Shown one piece after another: positions 196 to 50,967 of a stretch of 64,000 nucleotides of DNA. The DNA comes from Pomacea canaliculata (lineage: Eukaryota; Mollusca; Gastropoda; Architaenioglossa; Ampullariidae): NCBI RefSeq assembly GCF_003073045.1, contig NC_037597.1, forward strand, positions 3,410,190-3,474,189, given 5' to 3'. Made by a program: the position numbers and the translations under genes. Under the pieces are notes generated by a model. It worked only from the letters and a program-made list of their open reading frames with translations, did not search any database and was not told the origin of the DNA. Numbering within the stretch: the first letter of the stretch is position 1; each line of letters opens with the position of its first letter.

Positions 196-12761
<12,566 letters not shown>

Positions 12762-22400: not shown

Positions 22401-25400
22401 CAAGGAACAACCTAGCTTTGATCAAACCAAATTTCAAAAATGTACAAAAGTGCATTTATTGGAAGATGCAGTGCTGGTTGAAAGGCACTTAAAACAATTA
22501 GTACATAAAACCATTAACAAGTTTAGAAAAAAGAAAAAACACCAGCACCAACAAAACAAAAAGAAGAACATAGTAAAATAACAGACACTGATGTCACTGA
22601 CAAGGCTAATGAGATCCAGCAAAAAAGCAATATTTTAGAGCAAAGTAAACAAAAAATGAAAAAAACATTTAAAACATTCTGATTTTTAGGAGTATAGCAT
22701 GAAACATAAAAGTGACTCTGGCAGGGACTGATCCTAAACTACGGAGATGACTCGATCTTTGTCATCATCCACACAAATTTCAAAAAAGCAATCAGCAGAC
22801 TATGAAAATTTTACTTAATGAAATATAAAACTCAAATTTTAAAAATATACAAGTTCAAATAAGCCATCATTTAATAATGTGAAAATCCATTAGCTTCAAT
22901 ATGTTAACAGTAGAGGCTCAGTCCAGTCAGTAACGAGACTTATACATTATTAAGAAAAAAAAATAGTACACCCAAATACACATGCATGACCATATACTAA
23001 ATTTAATTTCCCCAAACTATTCCAAAAGGTTAAGGTTTTTTTTGTGTTGATTTAATGAAAAAAGCGTGTAAGTAAAGTCAAGGGTACAGAAGCATAAACA
23101 GAGACGGTGATTTACTCACGCCTGACTTAGACGACGACCAGTTGGAGATTTAATACCAAAGTACCTGCCAAAAAGACCAATTTTCTAGCTCTTATTTTAG
23201 AAACAATTTGCAAGCAATCTGTAACTCGTCATTCTAGTGATCATAAATACTCTATTATGTTTCACAGTCATAAAAAAATAACCTATAATTATGTCACTAC
23301 AGGGAGCTACATGCAATTTTGTGAAGTGTGAAGCTTCTAACAATTTAAGCTAGTGCAACATAACAGAGTCAAATCACACAAATAACTGTAATAATTTTAC
23401 CACACAAAATGAATGGTACAGTAAGTACATTATCATGAAAAAAAACATTAAAAAAAGAAAAGTATGTAAGTCATATCAAAACAATGATACAGTAATCGTA
23501 TAACATAAATATCTGAAATGGACTTGAAAATGTCCACCACAAAATAAAGGCATAAAAAGAATATTCTTACAAATCTGCAAGTCAGACAGAGAAGGCAATG
23601 TATATATCCAATAAAAGTAAGAGACATCAGCACATTACTAAAATGACATTTACTTTGTAGGCATCCCAGTTCGAGTGAAGCGAAGTACATCTGTGTTGCC
23701 CAAAGCAATGCTACTGTCAGGCTGTTCCTGTATGTCCTCAGAAAAGGCATCAGATTTAACAATGCCATTTCGAACTCTGATCTGAGCTTTTGAAGCCTGC
23801 TCCTGCAACCAGCTCTGGTGGTCTTTGTCCAGAGAAATGTTCAGAGGAGGTACGGTTCCTCTGTCACCATCACTGCGCAATGGTGCATGGCTCTGGAGAC
23901 TCATTTCCATCAGCATTGACTCTGTTAGTGTGTCTGTTATAGTCAAGTTCTCTGCCATCTTGGATTCGGCTGTGCTTCCTGGGTTTGGCTTGAGGTGCAC
24001 TGTCCTTGTTCCTATCTGTCTCATGGCTGTCCTCCCCTCTTTTGTTTCCATAAGGTAAGTTAGTTGTCTTTGGAGGAGTGTAATACTTATTTCCCTTCAT
24101 TTTCAAGTGTGACTCTCGGTTGCTTTTTAATGTACGTGGTGTAAAAGGTTTCTGGGGCTCTGTAAAAACATGAGCATGCTTATGCAAAACATCTCCATCA
24201 TATGTGACCTTCAGAGGGTTTGAAGCACGAGATGCATGTGACACATTGCTAGCAAGGGATGTTGCGGATCGAGATGACATAGGTCGCTGCCGCTGTTGGT
24301 AGTTTGTGCTCTGCACTGCCTGTGCCATCCCTTGGAATGTGGTTGAGTAAGGCCTCATTCTGGTGCCTAGCCCTCCTACTTCTGACTGTAACCCAGTTGT
24401 TACCAATGTACTATCCTGAGGTAAAGCCTTCATGGGCACACGAAGCGTGGTGCGCATAATTTCCTGAACCTGACGCTCCTCTTCATCTTCTGGTTCATCC
24501 TGTAAAATATGAATATGATCATAAATGACAACTTACACTGGTCCATACTGAAATTATTACTGACAGAAAAAGGTCCTAATGTGTGGTATCTTGGTGTGCT
24601 GAACACAAATATGACCATGAAAATTTTGTATTGGCTCTCTATTTGAAGATATTTGATATATCATTTTCTTTGTTTCATCGTATAAATTTATCCAGTGGGA
24701 CTGTAACAACATCCTAAATAAGCTGAAGGCTCCTTCCCCACTACTTTACTGAAATCTTGTCTGTCTACACCCCGGCTTGAAACCTTGGCTCCTCATCAGA
24801 CTCCCGCATTCTATCCTCCCTCCTACAAAGACATTCACCCTCTGTGCTGCTAAGCAGTGGAACTCTCTTCCACACCACATTTGCCACTCGGACTCCAAGG
24901 CTACATTCAAACGCTATTTAAAAATGTATCTGTTCACAAAGTACTATCCCTGAATTACTATTCTTAACTCCCTAACAGTACCTTCAGTCATGCTACCCAT
25001 CATGTAATGAACTCCATCTCAAACTGTTTACCGTATCTATATCCCTCCATACCTTCATCCATTGCTTTACATTCTACTCTTGTATCTTACATTTATGTTG
25101 TTCAGTGTGCCTATATGTACCTCACTGTCCACTGGCTGTTATCTTTCATTTATCATGATTGGACTGCGCAGAGAGTGCAATCTATCTTGGTCATGATGCT
25201 GCGCATTATAAGTTCATATTATTATTATTAATGCCTTTAAAGTGTGTTAATATCCTGGACGATTTTTGCTAAATTTGTAAAGAAGTGAGATTTGAAAACC
25301 AGAAGGAAAGTAGCACTTCTCAAGTGAAGAAGGCATATCATCTTTACTTATGATGCAAAGATTGGCAACCAAGACAAACCTTGAGCCCCACATTTATGTT

Positions 25401-28400: not shown

Positions 28401-28834
28401 ACAGAGCCACAGGATTTTTGTCTGTGTGGTGTTTTTGTGTTTATTATGTGGTGAGCCTGGCTTTGGCTAGGATATAACACTATAAAAGCTCCCACTATTA
28501 TCATTATTATTTTAAAAAGTACAGCAGCTGTTTTGATGACAATCCCACAAGAGAACAAAAAGAAGAATGCTGACAGCTTACAAATACTCTGGAAATCATA
28601 ATTCAATGCTAAATTGGAAATGTGATTTGTTTTAAACCACCAAAAAATCAGAAAAAAGTAGAATTCTATAAAAGAATGTCTATTTTTCAATTTAGATATT
28701 AGCATTTACTGTTGTAATTTTTTTTTATTTGTGCATATTCTGCATACAGTTTGCAGTTCAGAGACCAAAGAAAGTAGTGAATAATACTCACCACTGCTTT
28801 TGGTCCCTAGTTGTCCTTTTAGTGATGCTGTCAT
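19414..28834 (-). CDS. SPATA7: Spermatogenesis-associated protein 7 homolog (ciliary protein)
   Basis: SPATA7 works at the ciliary transition zone/photoreceptor connecting cilium with RPGRIP1; human loss causes Leber amaurosis or retinitis pigmentosa. Minus-strand coding exons: 28834-28792, 27880-27791, 27277-27230, 27016-26904, 24499-23654, 23164-23120, 21063-20986, 20476-20419, 20154-19414. Identity rests on three blocks shared with human: SLKGQLGTKSSA (human LFKGHLSTKSNA), KPFTPRTLKS with NKYYTPPK (human LPFTPRTLKT, RYYTPAK), and EEEQKYVAFAQEVTQDIVNR followed by VLHRIFENHIERKK and DIRMDLG. The start at 28834 is chosen because its frame has a stop just upstream; a 5' UTR exon must lie farther up. 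The C-terminal exon is long and ends in a strongly acidic tail. Exon 24499-23654 holds one frame break between about 24060 and 23870. Allowing for it, the protein is about 686 residues (human 599). Confidence 0.9.
21822..22015 (-). repeat. tRNA-derived SINE, copy 3 (reverse orientation)
   Basis: Read on the minus strand it starts GGTCTGATAGCACAATGGTTA, an A-box-like head, followed by GGGTTCTGATC in the B-box position. It ends GGCATAAAACACCAGTTT, the diverged family ending. It lies in the SPATA7 intron between 20986-21063 and 23120-23164, in the same sense as that gene. It is the most diverged of the three copies. Confidence 0.65.
24715..25232 (+). mobile_element. 3' end of an L2/CR1/Rex-type LINE
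   Basis: Plus-strand reading around 24830-24950 gives CAAKQWNSLPHHICHSD and then ATFKRYLKMYLF, the conserved C-terminal motif found after reverse transcriptase in L2, CR1 and Rex1 relatives. It is followed by a 3' UTR ending GCGCATTATAAGTTCATATT and an (ATT)n tail. Only the last half kilobase is present, as expected of a 5'-truncated copy. It lies in a SPATA7 intron in antisense orientation. Confidence 0.75.
25380..26550 (+). pseudogene. Decayed copy of an unclassified repeated protein family
   Basis: Plus-strand fragments such as REPSNHTNDCYFC, LHIKLGLMK, VKIHFLHSHLDFFPDNCG and LDDYCWTLPTDAPEQLY match, from memory, a large protein that recurs in many copies in aphid, hydra, sponge and other invertebrate genomes and is usually annotated as uncharacterized. 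The order of the fragments is that of the family. The copy is broken in several places and is not a working gene. Recurrence suggests a mobile element, but I cannot assign its class. It sits antisense in the large SPATA7 intron between exons 24499 and 26904. Confidence 0.6.
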
Positions 28835-29432: not shown

Positions 29433-30174
29433 TGAAGCACTATGATGTATTTTTCAAGTTCTTTGCATTATTTGTAGTTTCCCAAAAAACACCATACATT
29501 GAAAGCTGTTGTTTGACTGCTCAATCGTTATATCTGTTGGCTGCTGAAGAATGAATTAAATGACCCTCCTGACAGATGCATTGCGCTGCGTTCCTCTCTT
29601 AGATTATCAAAAAGGCAACCAAACTTGGAAGAAACACACACCAAGAAAATTACCTCACACTTATACAAATAAATCAAGGAAGAAAATCACCAAATTACCT
29701 GCAAAAAGCTCAGCAATGCACAAGTTAAAAAGTCCACATTATTCACTTTCAGGCTGGCTACTCAAATCACTCCAGAAGTGGCACCTAGTTTTCAACATTG
29801 TGCGCGACAATAGAACGCATTCGTGCGTCTTCACAGTAGCTTATTTAGTTAAATCCCGAACAGACTATATATACACGGCCAGTCCAAACCCGTCGGTCGC
29901 CATTATGGTTGCTACAACTACCTACATTAGCGCCGCCACCACTCGTCAAGGGAGGTAACTAACATAGCGATACACCTACGGAGTTATGTAGCTTCGTGAT
30001 ACAACTTGGACAAAAAGTCGTGTGGTCCAAAGTAACACAACCTAGGATAATACTCCGAAATAAACAAGTGGCTCAAATAAATGACTTCGTTATATTAGCT
30101 AATTTTTTCCTTTGTTTTGATAGCGGAATATGGCGTCTACCTCGGAAAACCCCTTTCATATAAACACTGAAAAA

Positions 30175-30193
30175 CCAATACTACACGGCCACG
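30175..30193 (+). promoter_or_regulatory. ER-stress response element (ERSE) of SYVN1
   Basis: The sequence is CCAAT, nine bases (ACTACACGG), then CCACG: a perfect match to the ERSE consensus CCAAT-N9-CCACG, bound by NF-Y and ATF6/XBP1. It lies 93 bp before the SYVN1 ATG. Human HRD1/SYVN1 is known to be induced in the unfolded-protein response through such elements, so spacing, position and gene function agree. Confidence 0.8.
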
Positions 30194-30285
30194 AAAGACT
30201 TGTTCTATTTTTGTCCATTTGACCTATTTCTGACGTAAACACCCGAAACGCCATTTTGATCTGTCCTCGTCTGTAAGCCGGCAAG

Positions 30286-33200
30286 ATGCGTTCTTTGCTA
30301 CTGTCTGGAGCAAGTTTTGCATTAACAGCAGCAGTTATTGCAAATGCCTACTATCAAAAGAAACAGTTTTATCCATCGGTTGTCTACATTACCAAGTCAA
30401 ACCCGAGTATGGCTGTAAGTAAATTGCCCACCCTGTCACTTCCAAGTGTGCAATAAGTAACAGTTAAGTAGTAATTAGTGTTAGATGCAGATGCTGAGAT
30501 TGTTTCGCGACAAACTCTGGCCCCGTAAATGGTAGAACATTACATTAATTTCCTTCAGTTAAGTGAAAATTAAAAATTAAAGTTTAGGTATTGTTGATGA
30601 CACTGATTTGTAGTCGCACAGGTTTTACGTCGTCCAGCTGAAACGGACAACCGAAAAGAATAGTAGGTGTGCAACATTGGAAGTAAAAGTTGTGATATAG
30701 CTGCTTATGTAGTCATTGATATTGAGTTAAATGATGGAGCCAGTTGCCATTCTTAAGTTGATCTTGCAAATATAGAGAATAAGAAAACATGACGTGTGCA
30801 GCTGCGCAGCTGTGAGAGAAGATTAAAAAATCGAAAGTGACACAGTGTCAGGTTCGCGTTTCTTTATATATATATTATCTTGATGAACAAAAGTTTCAGA
30901 TTCTGCGATAATAAATGGAAAGTGAATAAAACATGCCATTATTAAAGAGCAGTACCTTTTAGAAAATTTGTAGGACAAAGGTGTGAAAACTAACATTTGC
31001 TACATTCTTTAGTGATCTCGATATGTGGCATTCTACCACAGTGTATCTACCAATGAATATGTTATATATAAAGATTTGCCTCCACATCTTCTTTATTTCT
31101 CTAGCAGCATGTATATAAAAATAAGTTTTTCTCATTGGCTTCATTTCAGTTGTGCCACTCAAAATTTAGTTATTTGTGTCGGCTTAGTAGCAAAAGTAGT
31201 ACAATTTTTTTTTATGTTCTTATTCCACTAAATATTTAATAATATCATACTGTTTTTATTAGAATTTAGCAGATAAGATTGAAACAGGCAGTTAAGGATC
31301 TTTCCCCATGGGAAATATTGTAAATGTTGAAATTTCTGTTTGGATTTTTTAAAAACAAATTTTTTAACCTTTAGCATCAGTTAAATGTAAATGTTAACAG
31401 GAAAGAATATTTGCCAAATTTAGATAACTTCTTAACATCATGTGGCTATGTAGAGTGGCTTGCTCTCTCTCACTCACTAAATTTTTCTCTTTATAATGCT
31501 ATATTTGTGGCCTGCCTAACTCATTCTTTTGCCTTTAAGGTGATCTACATCCAAGCATTTGTTATTGTTATACTTATGGGAAAGCTGCTACGCAAGATAT
31601 TTTTTGGACAATTACGTGCTGCAGAAATGGAGGTATGTCATCAGTCTCATAATGCATTAATGTTTATCACAGATTCCTAAGAAAAAATGCTTTTGGAAAT
31701 AGCATCTTGTACCAAGTGTTGAAATGTTTTTTACACCTTCAGAGTTATTTATTTCAATTTGAATTGAAATAAATTTTTAATATGAAAATGACAGATTTTA
31801 TCATTATATATCAACTTATGTGATATTCTAGAGAACTATAGGTGGAGACATAGAAAGCTAGATAGAGGACTCAGATGTACTTATGTTTAGAAAACTGAAG
31901 CTACATAAAGATAGTCCTCCACTAATTTAAAGGCTCTAAAAAGTTTTGCTTGTAAGCATTGCAAGTATAGTTGCAATTTATATACATTTTTTTTTTGCAG
32001 CACTTGATAGAGAGATCCTGGTATGCAGTGACTGAAACCTGCTTGGCGTTTACAGTGTTCAGGGATGATTTCAGTCCACGCTTTGTGGCCTTGTTTACTG
32101 TGCTTCTGTTCCTAAAGTGCTTTCACTGGATGGCAGAGGATCGTGTTGACTTTGTAAGTTATTATCTAGATTGTTTTGTATGAAACAACACATGTTCTTG
32201 GTTTTATTGAGCACTATTTAGCTCAGTTCATTTTAACAAACAAATCAAGAAATTTAACTGGGGTCATGGTAAATAAGAGAATAAAATTTTCTTTTCTTGA
32301 AAACAGTTGACACACACAAAAAAAAAAGAAAATCAAGTGCATTGTTGGTTGAAAACATTTTTCATTATTTTTATTTAGTTATATCTAAAATTTTGACAAA
32401 AAGTTGAAGTAGATTGAAGATAGAAATTTGGTATTTTGGCCTATGATGCTTCAAAAAGTGTTTTTAAAATATTTCTGTTGGCAACTTAACTTTGATGATA
32501 TGAATTTGTTGTCATCATAGAAATTTGTTGTAAAAATTCTGTATAAAATATCAATATTATAATTTCTGTTTTCAGATGGAAAGGAGTCCAGTGATATCAT
32601 TTGTCTTTCACCTGAGGGTCCTTTGTGAGCATTTTTAAGTTCTTGGTCAGATACATGTTTAATGCCTGTCATTAGTTAACAGGTTTTATAATGATTAACA
32701 ATTAAAGCATGATACTAGTCACTTGATGTACTTAATTTAAGAGTTCATGGCAGTTGAAAACAGCAAATAACTGAAGCATGTTTACTGAGGGTTACATATT
32801 TTAAATATATTGTCACAGTAAATAGATTGTTTGTTTTAATTTTGCAGCTTTGCTAACTTTCCTTGGAGTATTAGATGTGTATTTTGTGAACCATGCTTAC
32901 TATTCAACCTTGCTGAAGGGGCCTACAGTACAACTAGTCTTTGGTTTTGAGGTGAGGTAATATAGTAACTGCTATGCCTTTTTGTTATGACTGTTTATTG
33001 TGGTCATATGTCCAGAAGATAATTTCTTTTTTTGCACAAGTAATTGAGATAAAGGTTTGTATCCTTCCTTGCTAATTTAAACAGATGGATAAACAGACGT
33101 CTAAGAATTAATTAGATAAATGTTTTTGCTGTTTGCAGTACTCCATTCTTCTGACTGTGGTGGCCATGACATTCATCAAGTATTTGCTGCATACAGTGGA

Positions 33201-36200
33201 CCTACAGAATGAAAATCCCTGGGATAATAAGGCTGTTTACCTTCTTTACACTGAACTGTTAATGGGTAATTACAGATAGAAGTCATTATAGCGCTGGAAA
33301 TCCACTGTACACGATACACACACAAATATCTTGCCTTGACAATGGCTAAAAGCAAAAACTAGAACACATAAAAATCATATGGAAGTACAAATGAGTATTC
33401 TGCAAACATAGTTCTTCTAATCATGCATTTGTAGAGGAAATAATTTTGACACCAATGTTTTTAAAAAGGAAACAAAAGTCACTATGCTGATGCTAATTTG
33501 AAAATGCTGAAATAGTGTGTTTGGTATTTACAGGATTCACAAGAGTGGTCCTTTATGTCTGTTTCATGGTGGTTATGATCAAGGTGCATACATTCCCACT
33601 GTTTGCTATACGCCCCATGTATCTTGCCAGCAGGTCAGTAGCTTGAAATCGCCACATTACAAAAATAGATGAAGTGTTATAATTAGTCTGTTTGCAACAT
33701 TCATGGCTTATCTTTTAATTCAGATATGTATGATTTCAGATCTTTCAAAAAGGCATTGCAGGATGTGATCATGTCTCGCAGAGCTATCCGAAACATGAAC
33801 ACGATGTGAGTAGCAAATGATCTGGTTTCTGTATGCATGCACATGTGCATGTGTGTTAATGATCTTCCCATTTCAAAAAATATTTTAGCATTGTTGATTA
33901 TTCCTTAACTGTAAATTTTTTAAAGAAATGCAGAAGTTGTATATGATGGATATGTTTCTTGGCCAAAAATGGATTATGAATGTAATGTTATGCTTTCAGG
34001 CAGGTTTTGTGAAGACAGTCTGTTGTTTCCAGTATATTCAAAAGTATATAGTGTGCATGCGCGCACACACACACACAAGACACCCATGTTAACCCAAACT
34101 AGGCTTTGGGCCTTTCGCTCTTGATTTATGTACCTTCTCCTTTGTAGGTATGCAGATGCCACACCTGAAGAACTGGCATCTGGAGACAATGTGTGCATCA
34201 TCTGCAGGGAAGAGATGACCCAGTCCAGCAAAAAGCTGCCATGCAACCATATTTTTCACACTAGCTGTCTGCGCTCCTGGTTCCAGCGCCAGCAGACTTG
34301 CCCCACATGCCGCCTTGATGTTCTGAGAATGCCACGACCTTCTGCTACCCCAGCAGCAGCAGCAGCAGCAACAGCAGCTGCACCTCCCATTGCTCAGGCT
34401 AATAATGCCCCACAGCAACTTTTCCAAAACTGTGAGCAAAATCTGTTGAGAAAACTGTTTAGCATGGTTTAGGCAGGATGCATTGCGCACAGTTTTGGCT
34501 TTATTTATTAATGATTTTGTGGCGATTCCAACAGAGCAAATAGTTACTGGTATTAGAATACATCTGTGTGGTTTGTTTCAGTCAATGGCATGTTTGGAGG
34601 TTTTCCTTACGCCTGGCCACCAGTCCCTCCTGCTCATGCAAATGGACAACCAGGAGCACAGCCACAGCAAGGTGGAGAGAGAGATGGGGAATATGTGCGT
34701 GCATGTGTTTGAGGAAGTGTATGAGACAGTGCATTAGATATATAGAGCATTGAAAGTATAAAGCATTGATACCAGTACTCTTTGTTTTCTTCTCAGAAAT
34801 CTATTACGATATAATGTTCCACTCACAGGGACACAACAAAGTGTTCCATCAGCAGGAGGAACAACTACCAGTGCAAACAACAACACTACACCAGCAGCAC
34901 CAGGGAGTCCTCCACCATTTCCCCCTTTTTCCCATCTATGCCCATGTTTATGCCATTTGGTAAGTAGCCAGCTTCTTACAAGAAGTCCAAATGCCTCACA
35001 AAGGCCTATATTATAAATGTCAACTTTGTAAACCCTGGAATTAGGCTTGTTTTCATGTTTTAAAAATATACATTTGTAAATATATTTGTATTTATAAATA
35101 TACAGTTTATACATATTTATAATGTGTAATGACTAAAAAGTTATTGATATTATTTCTCCTGAAATCCTCCTGTCTAGGGTCACATTTACCAGGCATTCCC
35201 ATCCTGCAAATCAAATGATTTTCTCTGTCTAGGTTTCCCCCCACCTCCTGCAAATCTTGGTGGATTGAGTGATTCTGAGCTGCGATCTATGGAAGGAACA
35301 GAGAGAGCTAATGTGGAAGCCCGTATCTACTGGTTACGGGATATCCAAGCCTTACTAGATGGTGCCATGATGTTGATATCTCAGTACAATCAAGTAGCAG
35401 CCACAGTTGGGTGTGTTGGGTGAATTTTATAATTGTAAAGTTATTGTCAACTTATACATCTTTGCACAAGAATGAAGCGTTGTGTCATTATTTTGGTTTA
35501 ACACATTAGCTTCAAGCCACTTAAGCTTGATGTCAGCTTCTTAAAATACGTGACATTTGTAGGAATTGATTAGAAGCACTTAAAAGGCAATGATAACAAA
35601 GCCCTCGTTGGAAGGGGATGGGGGGTTGGCAGCTATGTAGCTTATGCTTATTAAATGATGCTGTAATTTGTGTATAGAACTGCTGTTGGTATTGTCTTTC
35701 AGAATGAGTGGGATCCATGTGCCACCAACCGGTTCACAAACATCTACAGCAAAGGACACAGCCTCAACAAAGACGAAGCCAGAAGGTCCTATCCCAGAAA
35801 CCAACCAGGCTGAGACAGTGACAACAAATACAGACACATTGCCCAAAGTTTCGTCATCAGTCACATCGCTTAATTCTCCCAGTTCAAAAAGCTTAGAGGA
35901 AACTTTAGGTACTTGAAGAATTTGTATCACTTTACCACATACAGCTCCACATCATTTACTCATTCCCCAAATCTGATGGAATAAACTTATTGTAGAAAGA
36001 TGTTAAAACCTTAACTAGATAGATACATGCACTTTCTCATTTGGAGGAATCTTGACAGTGTCAACTTAGAAACATATCCATGATTACAATGCTGTCAGTG
36101 CAAAAAAAAAAAAATCTTCCCTGACTGGCAAGCTTCTTGGAAATTAAGCCAGAATTTCAAAACCTCCCCAAGTGAAATTTCACTCTAGCTCCTTAAAATG

Positions 36201-46894: not shown

Positions 46895-49800
46895 CCCCTG
46901 TGGGACCCCGGGGTATGCTTGCCTAGCAAGCATTGTAAGAATAGGGTCCCTGCCATCCAGCCAGGCATGTCGTAAGAGGCGACTAAGGTGGACACCTCAC
47001 CTAGAGGTAAATTAGGTTGTGTAGGGCTAACAACCCCACCATGTAAAAAAAGTATGTTACAGAACTAAACCAGAGAACTCGTCACAGATGGCGGAGGTAA
47101 TGAAGCACACCAGGTGACTGGACTAATGACGGACGACAGCCAAACCCGAAAGGGAGCTGGCGCCCCGACAGTAGATTTACTGAAGCCGAGGCAGAAGTTG
47201 AGGTGGGGTGCTGGAACGTCCAGACCTTGTACCAGACTGGCAGGATGCTCCAACTAGTCAAGGAGTTTGACAACTACAACTTGGACATCCTGGAGTCAGT
47301 GAGGTCAGATGGACCGGCACGGGAAAGAGGAGACTAGCGTCAGGACATACCATCTTGTTCTCAGGAAGATCAGACGCTCAGCACTCTGAAGGAGTAGCTC
47401 TACTCCTCAACAAGAAAACGGAAAAGGCACTGCTGGAATGGAAGCCTTATGGACCTAGGCTTTGAGAGCAAGATTCCATTCAAAGTACACCAAGCTGACA
47501 GTGCTAGCCTGCTATGCACCAACAAATGACTCTGAGGCAGAAGACAAGGATGCTTTTTACGATCAGCTCCAAGCAGCCTCAGAGAGCGTTCCAGCCCACG
47601 ACATGTTGCTCATCATCGGCATCTCAATGCCAAGGTGGAAGTGACAACACCTGCAGGGAGCATGTCATGGGCAAACATGGAATCGGAACCATCAATGACA
47701 ACGGAGAGAGACTGGCAGACTTTTGTGAAGAAAACAACCTACTGATTGGAGGCACACTCTTCCCACACAAAGACATCCACAAGGCAACATGGACATCACC
47801 AGATGGGAGCACAAAGAACCAGATAGACCATGTCATCATCAACCGAAAATGCAGGAGCTCACTTCAAGATGTTAGAGCCTACAGAGGAGCAGACATTGCC
47901 AGTGACCACACTCTTGTGATAGCCACAGTTTCCCTGAAGCTACGTCGATCACGAGGAAAACAGGCACGTCAGCAGAGAGTGGACTCTGGCAAACTGAAAA
48001 ATCCAGTCATCGAAAGGGCCTTTGCTATGGAAGTAAAGAACAGGTTCCAAGCACTAGGAGACCAACAAGAGATGACCTTAGACGACTTCAATCGAGTCTT
48101 ACAGGAATCAGGAGAGAAAATACTGGGCTTCCAACGAAAAAAGAAAGAACAGTGGATCAGAGAAGAGACATGGAAGAAGATAGAAGAGAGAAAGTCAGCC
48201 AAACAAAGAATCAACAGCACCAGATCTGAACGCCTGAAAGAACAACTCAGACAAAGATATGCAAACTAAACAAAGAGGTAAGAGGATGGCAAGAACCGAC
48301 AAAAGAGACCACATAGAGAAACTGGCAGATGAAGCAGAAAATGCAGCAAGTAAAAAATAACCTGAAGACACTGTACAAGATAAACAAACAGCTAAACAAC
48401 GGGTTAAGAACAGTGATGTGCCAGTGAAAGACGTGAACGGTAATGTCATCGAGGAGAGGCAGAAAAACTACAGCGCTGGAAGGAACATTTTGAGTCGGTT
48501 CTGAACAGACCAGATCCCCCTCAGCTTGCAGACATCCAGCCAGCAGATATTGACCTTGACATCTGCACAGACCCACCAAGCCTGGAAGAAGTGACAGCAG
48601 CAGTCAAGACAATGAAGAGCGGCAAAGCACCAGGGCAGATGGAATAAACAGCAGAGATGTTGAAAGCTGATGTGAATGTGACAGCTCCCAAGCTGACTGA
48701 AATCTTCAGACAAATTTGGGAATCAGGGCAGGTCCCTGTTGCGTGGAAGACAGGGCTCATCTTCAAGTTACCCAAGAAAGGAGATCTTGGAGACTGCAAT
48801 AATTGGAGGGCATAACACTTTTTCCCTCACCAGCAAGGTCTTCAGCAAGATTGTTTTGTCAAGACTGACGGCAACTCTTGAGAAAGACCTCCGACCACAG
48901 CAAGCAGGATTTCGTCTCTCCGGGCGATCCTGCTCCGAACACATCTTCATTCTGCGACAGATTCTGGAGCAGAGCAACGAATGGAACACACCGCTGTACA
49001 TCAATTTCATCGACCTGGAGAAGGCTTTTGACAGCATCCACCGCGAGTCCTTATGGAAGATCCTGAGGCATTACGGAGTCCCTGCAAAACTTGTTCAGGT
49101 CATTGCAATGCTGTACAGCGATTTCAAATCCCAGGTTGTCTGTGACACGGAGCTCACAGACCCCTTCAACGTCAGTACCGGGGTGAAGCAGGGCTGCATT
49201 CTGTCGCCGTTTCTCTTCATCCTGGCCATGGACTGGATCATGAAGACTCCACCGACAGTGAGAGGAGAGGGATCAGATGGACCATGACTATGACAGCAAC
49301 AACAACGCTGGAAGACTTGGACTTTGCTGATGACATTGCCCTGCTGTCACACCGCCACCAAGACATGCATGAAAAAACAAAGGCCTTCTCAGAAACAGCT
49401 GGAAACCTTGGCTTGAAGGTCAGCACAAAGAAAACGAAAAGTATGAGAGTGAACGCCAGAGTCCAAGACGGCATCAAACTAAATGGAAAGAGATTGAGGA
49501 AGTTGACAGTTTCACCTATCTTGGGTCCAAAATGTCAAACACCGGGATGCGGAGGTGGAGATTCGAGCCCGACTGGCGAAAGCCAGCCAGGCCTTCGCCT
49601 CACTCAGAGCACATGGAAGGCAAAAAACATCAGCCAGAAGATCAAGCTGAGAATCTTCAAGTCAAATGTTATCAGCACCCTCCTTTACGGATCAGAATCA
49701 TGGAAGATGACCAAAACCATCAGTAACAAGCTTGACGTCTTCCAAAACAGATGCCTCAGGCGCATACTTAACATCTTTTGGCCAAATACCATCACCAACG

Positions 49801-50967
49801 AAGAACTCCACCGAAGAACTGAAACCGAGTCCATCACCACGCAGGTTCAACGAAGGCGTTGGCGATGGATTGGACATGTGCTCCGCCAGCAGACAGCAGA
49901 CCTTTCCAGAGTCGCCCTACGATGGACTCCAGACGGCCGAAGAAAACGAGGCCGCCCAAAGGAAACTTGGAGAAGAACAGTGGAAAGGGAGATGAAAGGA
50001 AAGGGCTGGACATGGGGTCACCTAGAGCGGGTTTCAGCCGATCGACATCAGTGGCGGACTCTGGTTGAGGCCTTATGTGCAACCTGATGCACGAAGAGGA
50101 ATAGATAGATAGAAATACAGTGGAACCTCGGTTAACGAACTTAATCCGTTCTGGAAAGCTGTTCGTTAACCGAAATGTTCGTTATCCGAAACAATTTTTT
50201 CCATAAGAAATAAAGGAAATAGATTTAATTGGTTCCCAGCCCTTGTTGACTCGCTAATATTTGAAAGTTACAGGCTATATATATATATAGGTATTTGTTT
50301 TAATGAGAACAGTTATAATGCAGTATAAATGGAGTTAAATAAACATAAAAAACATTAACCAAAGCATTTAAACATCAGAAAACTTGCCGTTTTGACGGCG
50401 TGGTTGGAAGCAGGTGTGGGGAGGAAAGGGTGGAATTACTGCTTGGATTCCCCCTACATGAGCACACGTGACATTATAAAATCGGGGTTGACTTCACTTT
50501 TCTTTAACTTTGAGGTTAAAGAAAATATCCTGTGCAGTGTCTGCTCCTTCTGCCTTTTTTGTAAAACTTTTCGGTAATACGACATCACATATCCGACAGA
50601 CTCATGCCACCTTCATACTTTGAAATCATTTCCTTTTTCAATTCATTTGTTGGTCGCTTCCTTGTCATTACCTCACTATTATTAATTGCTCTTAATCTTC
50701 TTTGGAGCCATGATTGAGGATTATCTTATTAAAATAAAGCACAACAATCACTAAATAAGAAGGATGCGCATAGATAAGGAACGACTGATCGTAACTGTGT
50801 CTCGAGCGCGAATGATGACATGCTGGTCGGTCACGTGTGGTTCGCGTGGCTGTTCGTTATCCGAAATTTTGTTCGCTATCCGAGACAAACTTTTAACGAA
50901 ATTTTTGTTCGTTAACCGAAATATTCGCTATCCGAGGCGTTCGCTAACCGAGGTTCCACTGTAGATA
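46895..50967 (+). mobile_element. Near-complete RTE-like LINE, decayed, interrupted by a pogo-type element
   Basis: A non-LTR retrotransposon of about 3.2 kb once the inserted element at 50118-50961 is discounted, a typical RTE length. The duplication GTTAGTCCGACA flanks it (46883-46894 and 50968-50979), and it ends in a (GATA)n-like tail. Order of domains: 5' leader; AP endonuclease at about 47200-48000 (VLACYAPTND, later NQIDHVI and ASDHTLV); reverse transcriptase at about 48830-49360 (QQAGFRLSGRSCSEH, NFIDLEKAFDSI, TGVKQGCILSPFLF, catalytic LDFADDIALL); C-terminal region at about 49700-50085 (RRRWRWIGHVLRQ, then RKRGRPKETWRR). No ORF1 or RNase H is seen. The frame breaks at least four times (near 47.2-47.5, 47.62, 48.3-48.8, 49.25 and 49.53 kb), so it is inactive. 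Clade assignment to RTE is by motif memory. Confidence 0.88.
50118..50961 (-). mobile_element. pogo/Tigger-type DNA transposon remnant, nested in the LINE tail
   Basis: The ends are inverted repeats CAGTGGAACCTCGGTTAACG and, reversed, CAGTGGAACCTCGGTTAGCG. The element is flanked by TA (50116-50117 and 50962-50963), the Tc1/mariner/pogo target. More copies of the subterminal motif GTTCGTTAACCGAAA occur at both ends. On the minus strand near 50.59-50.71 kb are MAPKKIKSN and then, in another frame, RKRPTNELKKEM with YEGGMSLSDM, which resemble the start and first DNA-binding domain of Tigger/CENP-B-like transposases. The catalytic part is gone, so it is an internally deleted, non-autonomous copy. 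Confidence 0.88.

Follow-up and report, generated by a model that had tools for sequence, protein, structure and literature searches.

An exact ERSE upstream of SYVN1/HRD1 in the apple snail Pomacea canaliculata and its recurrence at other UPR genes

The SYVN1 locus

The window, a 64-kb stretch of DNA, derives from the genome of Pomacea canaliculata (apple snail) and contains SYVN1/HRD1, so that both the molluscan origin and the gene identity of the original prediction were confirmed. Nine SYVN1 exons joined with GT-AG borders gave an open frame of 368 residues on the forward strand. Exon 1 comprises 43 codons from the start codon (30286..30414, +). Exons 2-5 (31540-31632, 32001-32153, 32576-32624 and 32848-32951, +) and exons 6-9 (33139-33265, 33534-33633, 33740-33805 and 34148-34430, +, the last boundary being approximate) were assigned by homology, and exons 2-9 encode the membrane part and the RING. 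The protein matched synoviolin in the PDB with an E value of 7.3e-181, the match extending over the membrane part and the RING and including an orthologous N terminus. Query residues 2-355 aligned to residues 3-356 of the synoviolin chain, and the SYVN1 start codon was therefore taken to be the orthologous one. Further SYVN1 exons, to about 36780 (+), were seen outside the assembled frame.

SPATA7 was identified on the reverse strand from 23870-24532 (-), which matched the Pfam family HSD3 with an E value of 5.6e-17. A likely first coding exon of this divergent gene was read by eye at 28792..28834 (-), and its assignment to SPATA7 is probable. SPATA7 (-) and SYVN1 (+) are head to head, with the ERSE described below between them. 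Between the two genes, at 29870-29960, TATATATA and a GTTGCTACAAC string were seen by eye; these may be an RFX-type X-box of SPATA7 as a ciliary gene. Elsewhere in the window, exons resembling glutamyl/prolyl-tRNA synthetase were found at 3540-11302 (+); 3540-4010 holds a WHEP-TRS domain, and a class II synthetase core scored below threshold at 10922-11302. Retroelement-like open frames occupy 47514-50087 (+), of which 48739-49287 matched a reverse transcriptase (Pfam RVT_1, E value 1.9e-19).

The ERSE upstream of SYVN1

CCAATACTACACGGCCACG at 30175..30193 (+) is an exact ERSE (CCAAT-N9-CCACG) in the same orientation as SYVN1, with both halves and the 9-base spacer read from the sequence. The CCAAT box (30175..30179, +) is a predicted NF-Y site and the CCACG half (30189..30193, +) a predicted ATF6/XBP1 site, both roles following the account of the mammalian element in PMC8301375. 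A total of 92 bases separate the element from the SYVN1 ATG at 30286, its final base lying 93 bp before the A of the ATG, exactly as had been predicted. The exact pattern has this single match on both strands of the window, and dinucleotide shuffles of the window contained it in 3 of 100 cases (mean 0.03).

Neither the exact UPRE octamer (TGACGTGG/A) nor an exact ERSE-II (ATTGG-N-CCACG) was found in the SYVN1 promoter at 29786-30486. The octamer search gave only TGACGTAA at 30231..30238 (+), whose TGACGT core at 30231 is set in a sequence that departs from the UPRE consensus. It is a weak candidate for a second bZIP site, and TGACGT cores of this kind were common among the fetched loci. A repeat origin of the SYVN1 promoter was considered and rejected, 29850-30420 matching one place in the genome.

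Genome-wide background

The Pomacea canaliculata genome (440,159,624 bases, 440.16 Mb, in 24 contigs) was searched for the same pattern. Exact CCAAT-N9-CCACG occurred 373 times (0.847 per Mb) and the reversed pattern 311 times, so a lone ERSE match is unremarkable and weak evidence in itself. The version with an N10 spacer occurred 239 times, with reversed controls of 311 (N9) and 286 (N10). These counts did not establish that the N9 spacing is in excess across the genome, since 18 of the first 100 N9 sites listed were close forms of one repeat-like sequence. This sequence, with CCAATCGTCAGCGCCCACG or close forms of it, was present at many places in the genome (for example L001:1501-1519 and L002:1501-1519) and may spread ERSE strings through it. 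Most ERSE strings in the snail genome look like chance matches.

The bases following CCAAT were compared between the 82 N9 sites that remained of the 100 listed after the 18 repeat copies were removed and 70 N10 sites listed from contigs C1-C3. Among these listed sites, CA or CG followed in 16/82 (N9) and 1/70 (N10), and CA, CG, GA or GG in 26/82 and 17/70; the answer was mixed and was left unused. The spacer CCAATATAACACGGCCACG of a match at C1:28706126 is similar, but no gene could be assigned to this site by eye.

The SYVN1 element could itself be such a match, in which a CCAAT box, a frequent component of promoters, is followed by CCACG at the N9 distance through coincidence. The genome-wide counts, including the share from one repeat, speak for this, as do two further ERSE matches (L004 and L005) whose adjoining frames were by eye glutamate-receptor-like and retroelement-like and are not UPR genes. 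Against it, about 0.00025 exact ERSEs are expected per 300 bp at genome density, SYVN1 is a UPR gene, and an element of the same spacing was found at 5 of 19 other ER loci, as set out below. Coincidence is accordingly considered highly improbable.

Survey of UPR loci

Further loci were chosen by homology through Pfam family searches of the same genome, XBP1 and SDF2 being obtained through a sequence query. The test set comprised 19 ER chaperone, ERAD and UPR loci other than SYVN1 and DNAJB11; most DnaJ loci, cytosolic HSP90 and SEL1L lay outside the survey. Locus names rest on Pfam family hits and PDB matches. The best PDB matches of the corresponding pieces were BiP, BiP again for the BiP-like gene, GRP94 (endoplasmin), calreticulin and Derlin-1. 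Two PDI-type loci, L022 and L024, scored best with the multi-domain PDIA4, followed by P4HB and PDIA3, so that they are PDI-type genes whose paralogue names (P4HB-type and PDIA3-type) are only likely. The names HYOU1, PDIA6, HSPA13, SDF2 and DNAJC10, the paralogy of MANF and the PDI-type status of L020, L025 and L026 go beyond the family hits and are putative. The J domain of the DNAJB11-like gene had DNAJA3 as its best PDB match; this gene (L006) is a putative DNAJB11, judged from its sequence and a first exon resembling a signal peptide.

Exact ERSEs were found in 5 of the 19 loci, namely the BiP-like gene (L009), HYOU1 (L016), GRP94 (L033), calreticulin (L034) and XBP1 (L039). At genome density 0.13 would be expected in the set (Poisson 2.7e-7), and the ERSE is thus shared by several snail UPR genes beyond SYVN1. 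Near the gene start of three more, BiP (L010), PDIA6 (L021) and the P4HB-type PDI (L022), the looser CCAAT-N10-CACG was present, canonical BiP having the ERSE in a one-mismatch form only. One locus, the PDIA3-type L024, carried an exact ERSE-II (L024:8069-8079) 75 bp before the ATG, and one, Derlin-1, an exact UPRE (L036:3850-3857) 67 bp before the ATG. The fetched stretches of the other 9 of the 19 loci, some of which may miss the promoter, had no exact ERSE, ERSE-II or UPRE; these were MANF (L014), HSPA13 (L015), DNAJC10 (L027), calnexin (L035), a second Derlin (L037), SDF2 (L038) and the PDI-type L020, L025 and L026.

The ERSE of the BiP-like gene was visible in the genome list before the locus was fetched; the locus itself was obtained by searching for the HSP70 family. 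XBP1 and SDF2 were added once the hypothesis was in place; XBP1 had an exact ERSE, its CCACG running into CCACGTCA, and SDF2 had none. DNAJB11 was excluded from the statistics because it had been met through its ERSE.

Several individual loci had features of their own. GRP94 has three clustered ERSE-like sites (L033:5948-6035), of which one is exact and the others each have a single mismatch. The BiP-like gene (C1:12785500-12795499) is a second, more divergent gene with its own exact ERSE, and canonical BiP, with the one-mismatch form, lies on contig C11. In the DNAJB11-like gene, the exact ERSE (L006:1501-1519) comes after the start codon, within intron 1. At C9:6985900-6995899, MANF (-) and an HSP70-like gene (+) appear to be head to head, with ~5 kb between the matched exons.

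Spacing control and shuffles

CCAAT-Nn-CCACG was scanned over 31 spacers (n=0-30) in 17 UPR loci (148.3 kb) and 11 control loci (110 kb). The UPR loci gave 4 matches at n=9 and 1 over all other spacings; the control loci had none at n=9 and 4 at other spacings. When the tail was shortened to CACG, 8 matches fell at n=10 in the UPR loci (HYOU1 accounting for two, one of which is distant from the gene start) and ≤3 at each of the other spacings, and the controls had 1 at n=10 and ≤2 elsewhere. The enrichment in UPR loci is specific to the N9 spacing. The controls were HSC70, an HSPA9-type, an HSPA4-type and three inducible-type HSP70 loci, a TMX3-like locus, an unnamed thioredoxin and three DnaJ loci; the TMX3-like and a DNAJC16-like locus among them may be ER-resident and are not known as classic UPR targets. 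The UPRE octamer occurred in 5 copies among the control loci (L017, L018, two in L019, and L031) and is therefore too short to count alone.

The 300 bp upstream of the ATG were also compared for 10 genes with a named ATG, SYVN1 included. An exact ERSE was present in 4/10 and CCAAT-N10-CACG in 6/10; over 3000 rounds of shuffling of this set the means were 0.004 genes (maximum 1) and 0.019 genes (maximum 2), respectively. The ATGs had for the most part been identified at genes in which an element was already known, so this set is biased and the 19-locus count is the fairer measure.

Taken with the identical element at other snail UPR genes, the position of the SYVN1 ERSE in a UPR gene is far beyond chance. 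Chance was rejected for the regulon on the basis of the spacing scan and the 19-locus count, and was retained for single matches genome-wide.

The recurrence of the N9 spacing among UPR genes also bears on a further alternative, in which the element acts for the divergent SPATA7 or is simply an NF-Y box in the core of a bidirectional promoter and takes no part in the stress response. Bidirectional promoters often carry NF-Y boxes, and the head-to-head arrangement of SPATA7 and SYVN1 would suit either role. A CCACG at fixed spacing is nevertheless unneeded by NF-Y alone, and SPATA7, a ciliary gene, is not known to have a role in the UPR. With the spacing recurring as it does, such a role is considered very unlikely.

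Distance to the start codon and transcription start

Eight genes, SYVN1 among them, have their element 67-146 bp before the ATG. The gaps between element and ATG were 92 bases for SYVN1, 95 for PDIA6, 109 for the P4HB-type PDI, 117 for calreticulin, 136 for XBP1 and 146 for GRP94. In BiP, the BiP-like gene and HYOU1 the element is 622-749 bases before the ATG, and the first exon appears to be non-coding. The ERSE of SYVN1 therefore occupies a promoter-like position as do those of snail calreticulin, GRP94 and XBP1, in line with the place foreseen for it. Transcription of SYVN1 probably starts between the ERSE and the ATG, with which the gaps in the other UPR genes agree.

If transcription instead began at about 29900, with 29955-30123 as a putative intron of the 5' UTR, a real ERSE would lie inside the 5' UTR. 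This overlaps with the preferred explanation and differs from it in the transcription start. Donor-like GGGAG/GTAACT and acceptor-like TTTGATAG/CGG junctions (border at the slash) are present. An upstream open frame of 30 codons (30130..30222, +), which overlaps the ERSE and would be relevant only if transcription begins upstream of the frame, also counts for it. So do the ERSE in intron 1 of snail DNAJB11 and the human XBP1 ERSE at +33 to +51 (PMC8301375). Scored with a splice matrix built from the eight SYVN1 introns, the donor reached 7.1 (real donors 7.0-12.0) and the acceptor 4.3, below all eight real acceptors (10.4-20.6); the real sites trained the matrix, which is thus a rough guide only. 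Scores at least as high were obtained for 98/3564 GT and 142/3934 AG sites in the window, and the ATG gap of SYVN1 agrees with those of the seven other genes that have a coding exon 1. The upstream start is considered unlikely, and given the position of the human XBP1 ERSE it would not remove the function of the element.

Comparison with known systems

The mammalian ERSE-I, CCAAT-N9-CCACG, is described on HSPA5, HSP90B1, CALR and XBP1 in PMC8301375, which thus records an ERSE on human XBP1. The snail elements share with it both exact halves, the spacing and the closeness to the gene start at GRP94, calreticulin and XBP1, with one mismatch at BiP; they differ in belonging to a mollusc, where binding of NF-Y, ATF6 and XBP1 and induction are predicted.

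The human and snail SYVN1 promoters represent the same gene with the same class of element. The snail ERSE is 93 bp before the ATG with no exact UPRE at 29786-30486, whereas the human promoter has a UPRE. By the title of Yamamoto et al. 2008, the human HRD1 promoter reportedly has a functional UPRE that is bound by XBP1 and not by ATF6. For human HRD1, PMC4971459 places an ERSE-I at -506 and one UPRE at -2303, and states that overexpression of ATF6 and XBP1 induces the gene. The claim that human HRD1 is induced through ERSE-type elements is too simple in view of the UPRE at -2303 and the functional UPRE of that title. In mammals the ERSE is tied to quality-control genes and the UPRE mainly to ERAD genes, as stated in PMC3645738; in the snail, by comparison, HRD1 has an ERSE and neither UPRE nor ERSE-II at 29786-30486, and Derlin-1 has a UPRE.

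The plant pERSE is CCAAT-N10-CACG with bZIP28 as the partner (PMC3645738). The distance between the NF-Y half and the bZIP half is the same as in the snail, where BiP, PDIA6 and the P4HB-type PDI fit this looser form, although the plant element belongs to another kingdom and has its own partner, bZIP28. For C. elegans hsp-4, PMC6448932 describes only deviating ERSE-II-like elements, ATTGG-N6-CCACA, together with a CRE-like element, and reports that the induction under study (developmental, in seam cells) persisted after deletion of the ERSE-II-like elements. Snail and worm have the same two half-sites and a BiP-type promoter in common; spacing and last base deviate in the worm, and the snail has the exact mammalian form. 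Among open-licence papers, no report on ERSE or SYVN1 regulation in molluscs was found by title or abstract in a search that also took in invertebrates more widely.

Interpretation

CCAATACTACACGGCCACG is a genuine ERSE by its sequence and very probably a working one in the proximal promoter of snail SYVN1/HRD1. On the best reading, SYVN1 would be part of a molluscan ERSE regulon of the mammalian type, with NF-Y and ATF6/XBP1 as the presumptive factors and with their binding and induction taken by analogy. XBP1 exons and NF-YA-like exons were found in the snail genome with a sequence query, the ATF6 part of which had no match in that genome. ATF6, IRE1, PERK and XBP are named among Pomacea canaliculata genes in PMC6129957, and the presence of ATF6 therefore rests on that source.

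In mammals ATF6 binds CCACG only with NF-Y on CCAAT, and XBP1 can bind independently (PMC8301375). By extension from mammals, NF-Y would constitutively occupy the CCAAT box of SYVN1. ER stress would free ATF6 and lead to splicing of XBP1 mRNA, and SYVN1 would then rise together with the chaperones. The DNA code through which the snail controls its response to misfolding is probably largely that of mammals, since the ERSE precedes its HRD1 and adjoins several of its protein-folding genes.

Agreement between snail and mammals on XBP1, calreticulin, GRP94 and BiP with one mismatch favours common descent of the ERSE as a whole. A more far-reaching reading, to which we give even chances, is that the cis-code of the mammalian UPR predates the split of molluscs and vertebrates and was kept in this gastropod on XBP1, GRP94, calreticulin and, in looser form, BiP. 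ERSE-II and UPRE would also be in use, partly on other genes, and C. elegans would have drifted. In the snail lineage HRD1 would depend on the ERSE typical of chaperones and not on a UPRE, so that a single NF-Y/ATF6 element would link folding with disposal.

The SYVN1 element itself is one more ERSE; of greater interest is a molluscan regulon of the mammalian type. Views on how early animals wired the transcriptional UPR are based mostly on inference from vertebrates, flies and worms. Exact ERSEs on molluscan XBP1, GRP94, calreticulin, HYOU1, the BiP-like gene, DNAJB11 and HRD1, together with the ERSE-II of a PDI gene and the Derlin-1 UPRE, suggest that the vertebrate code is old. This idea is testable through mollusc and annelid promoters, for which the snail sites provide a short list for reporter mutation.
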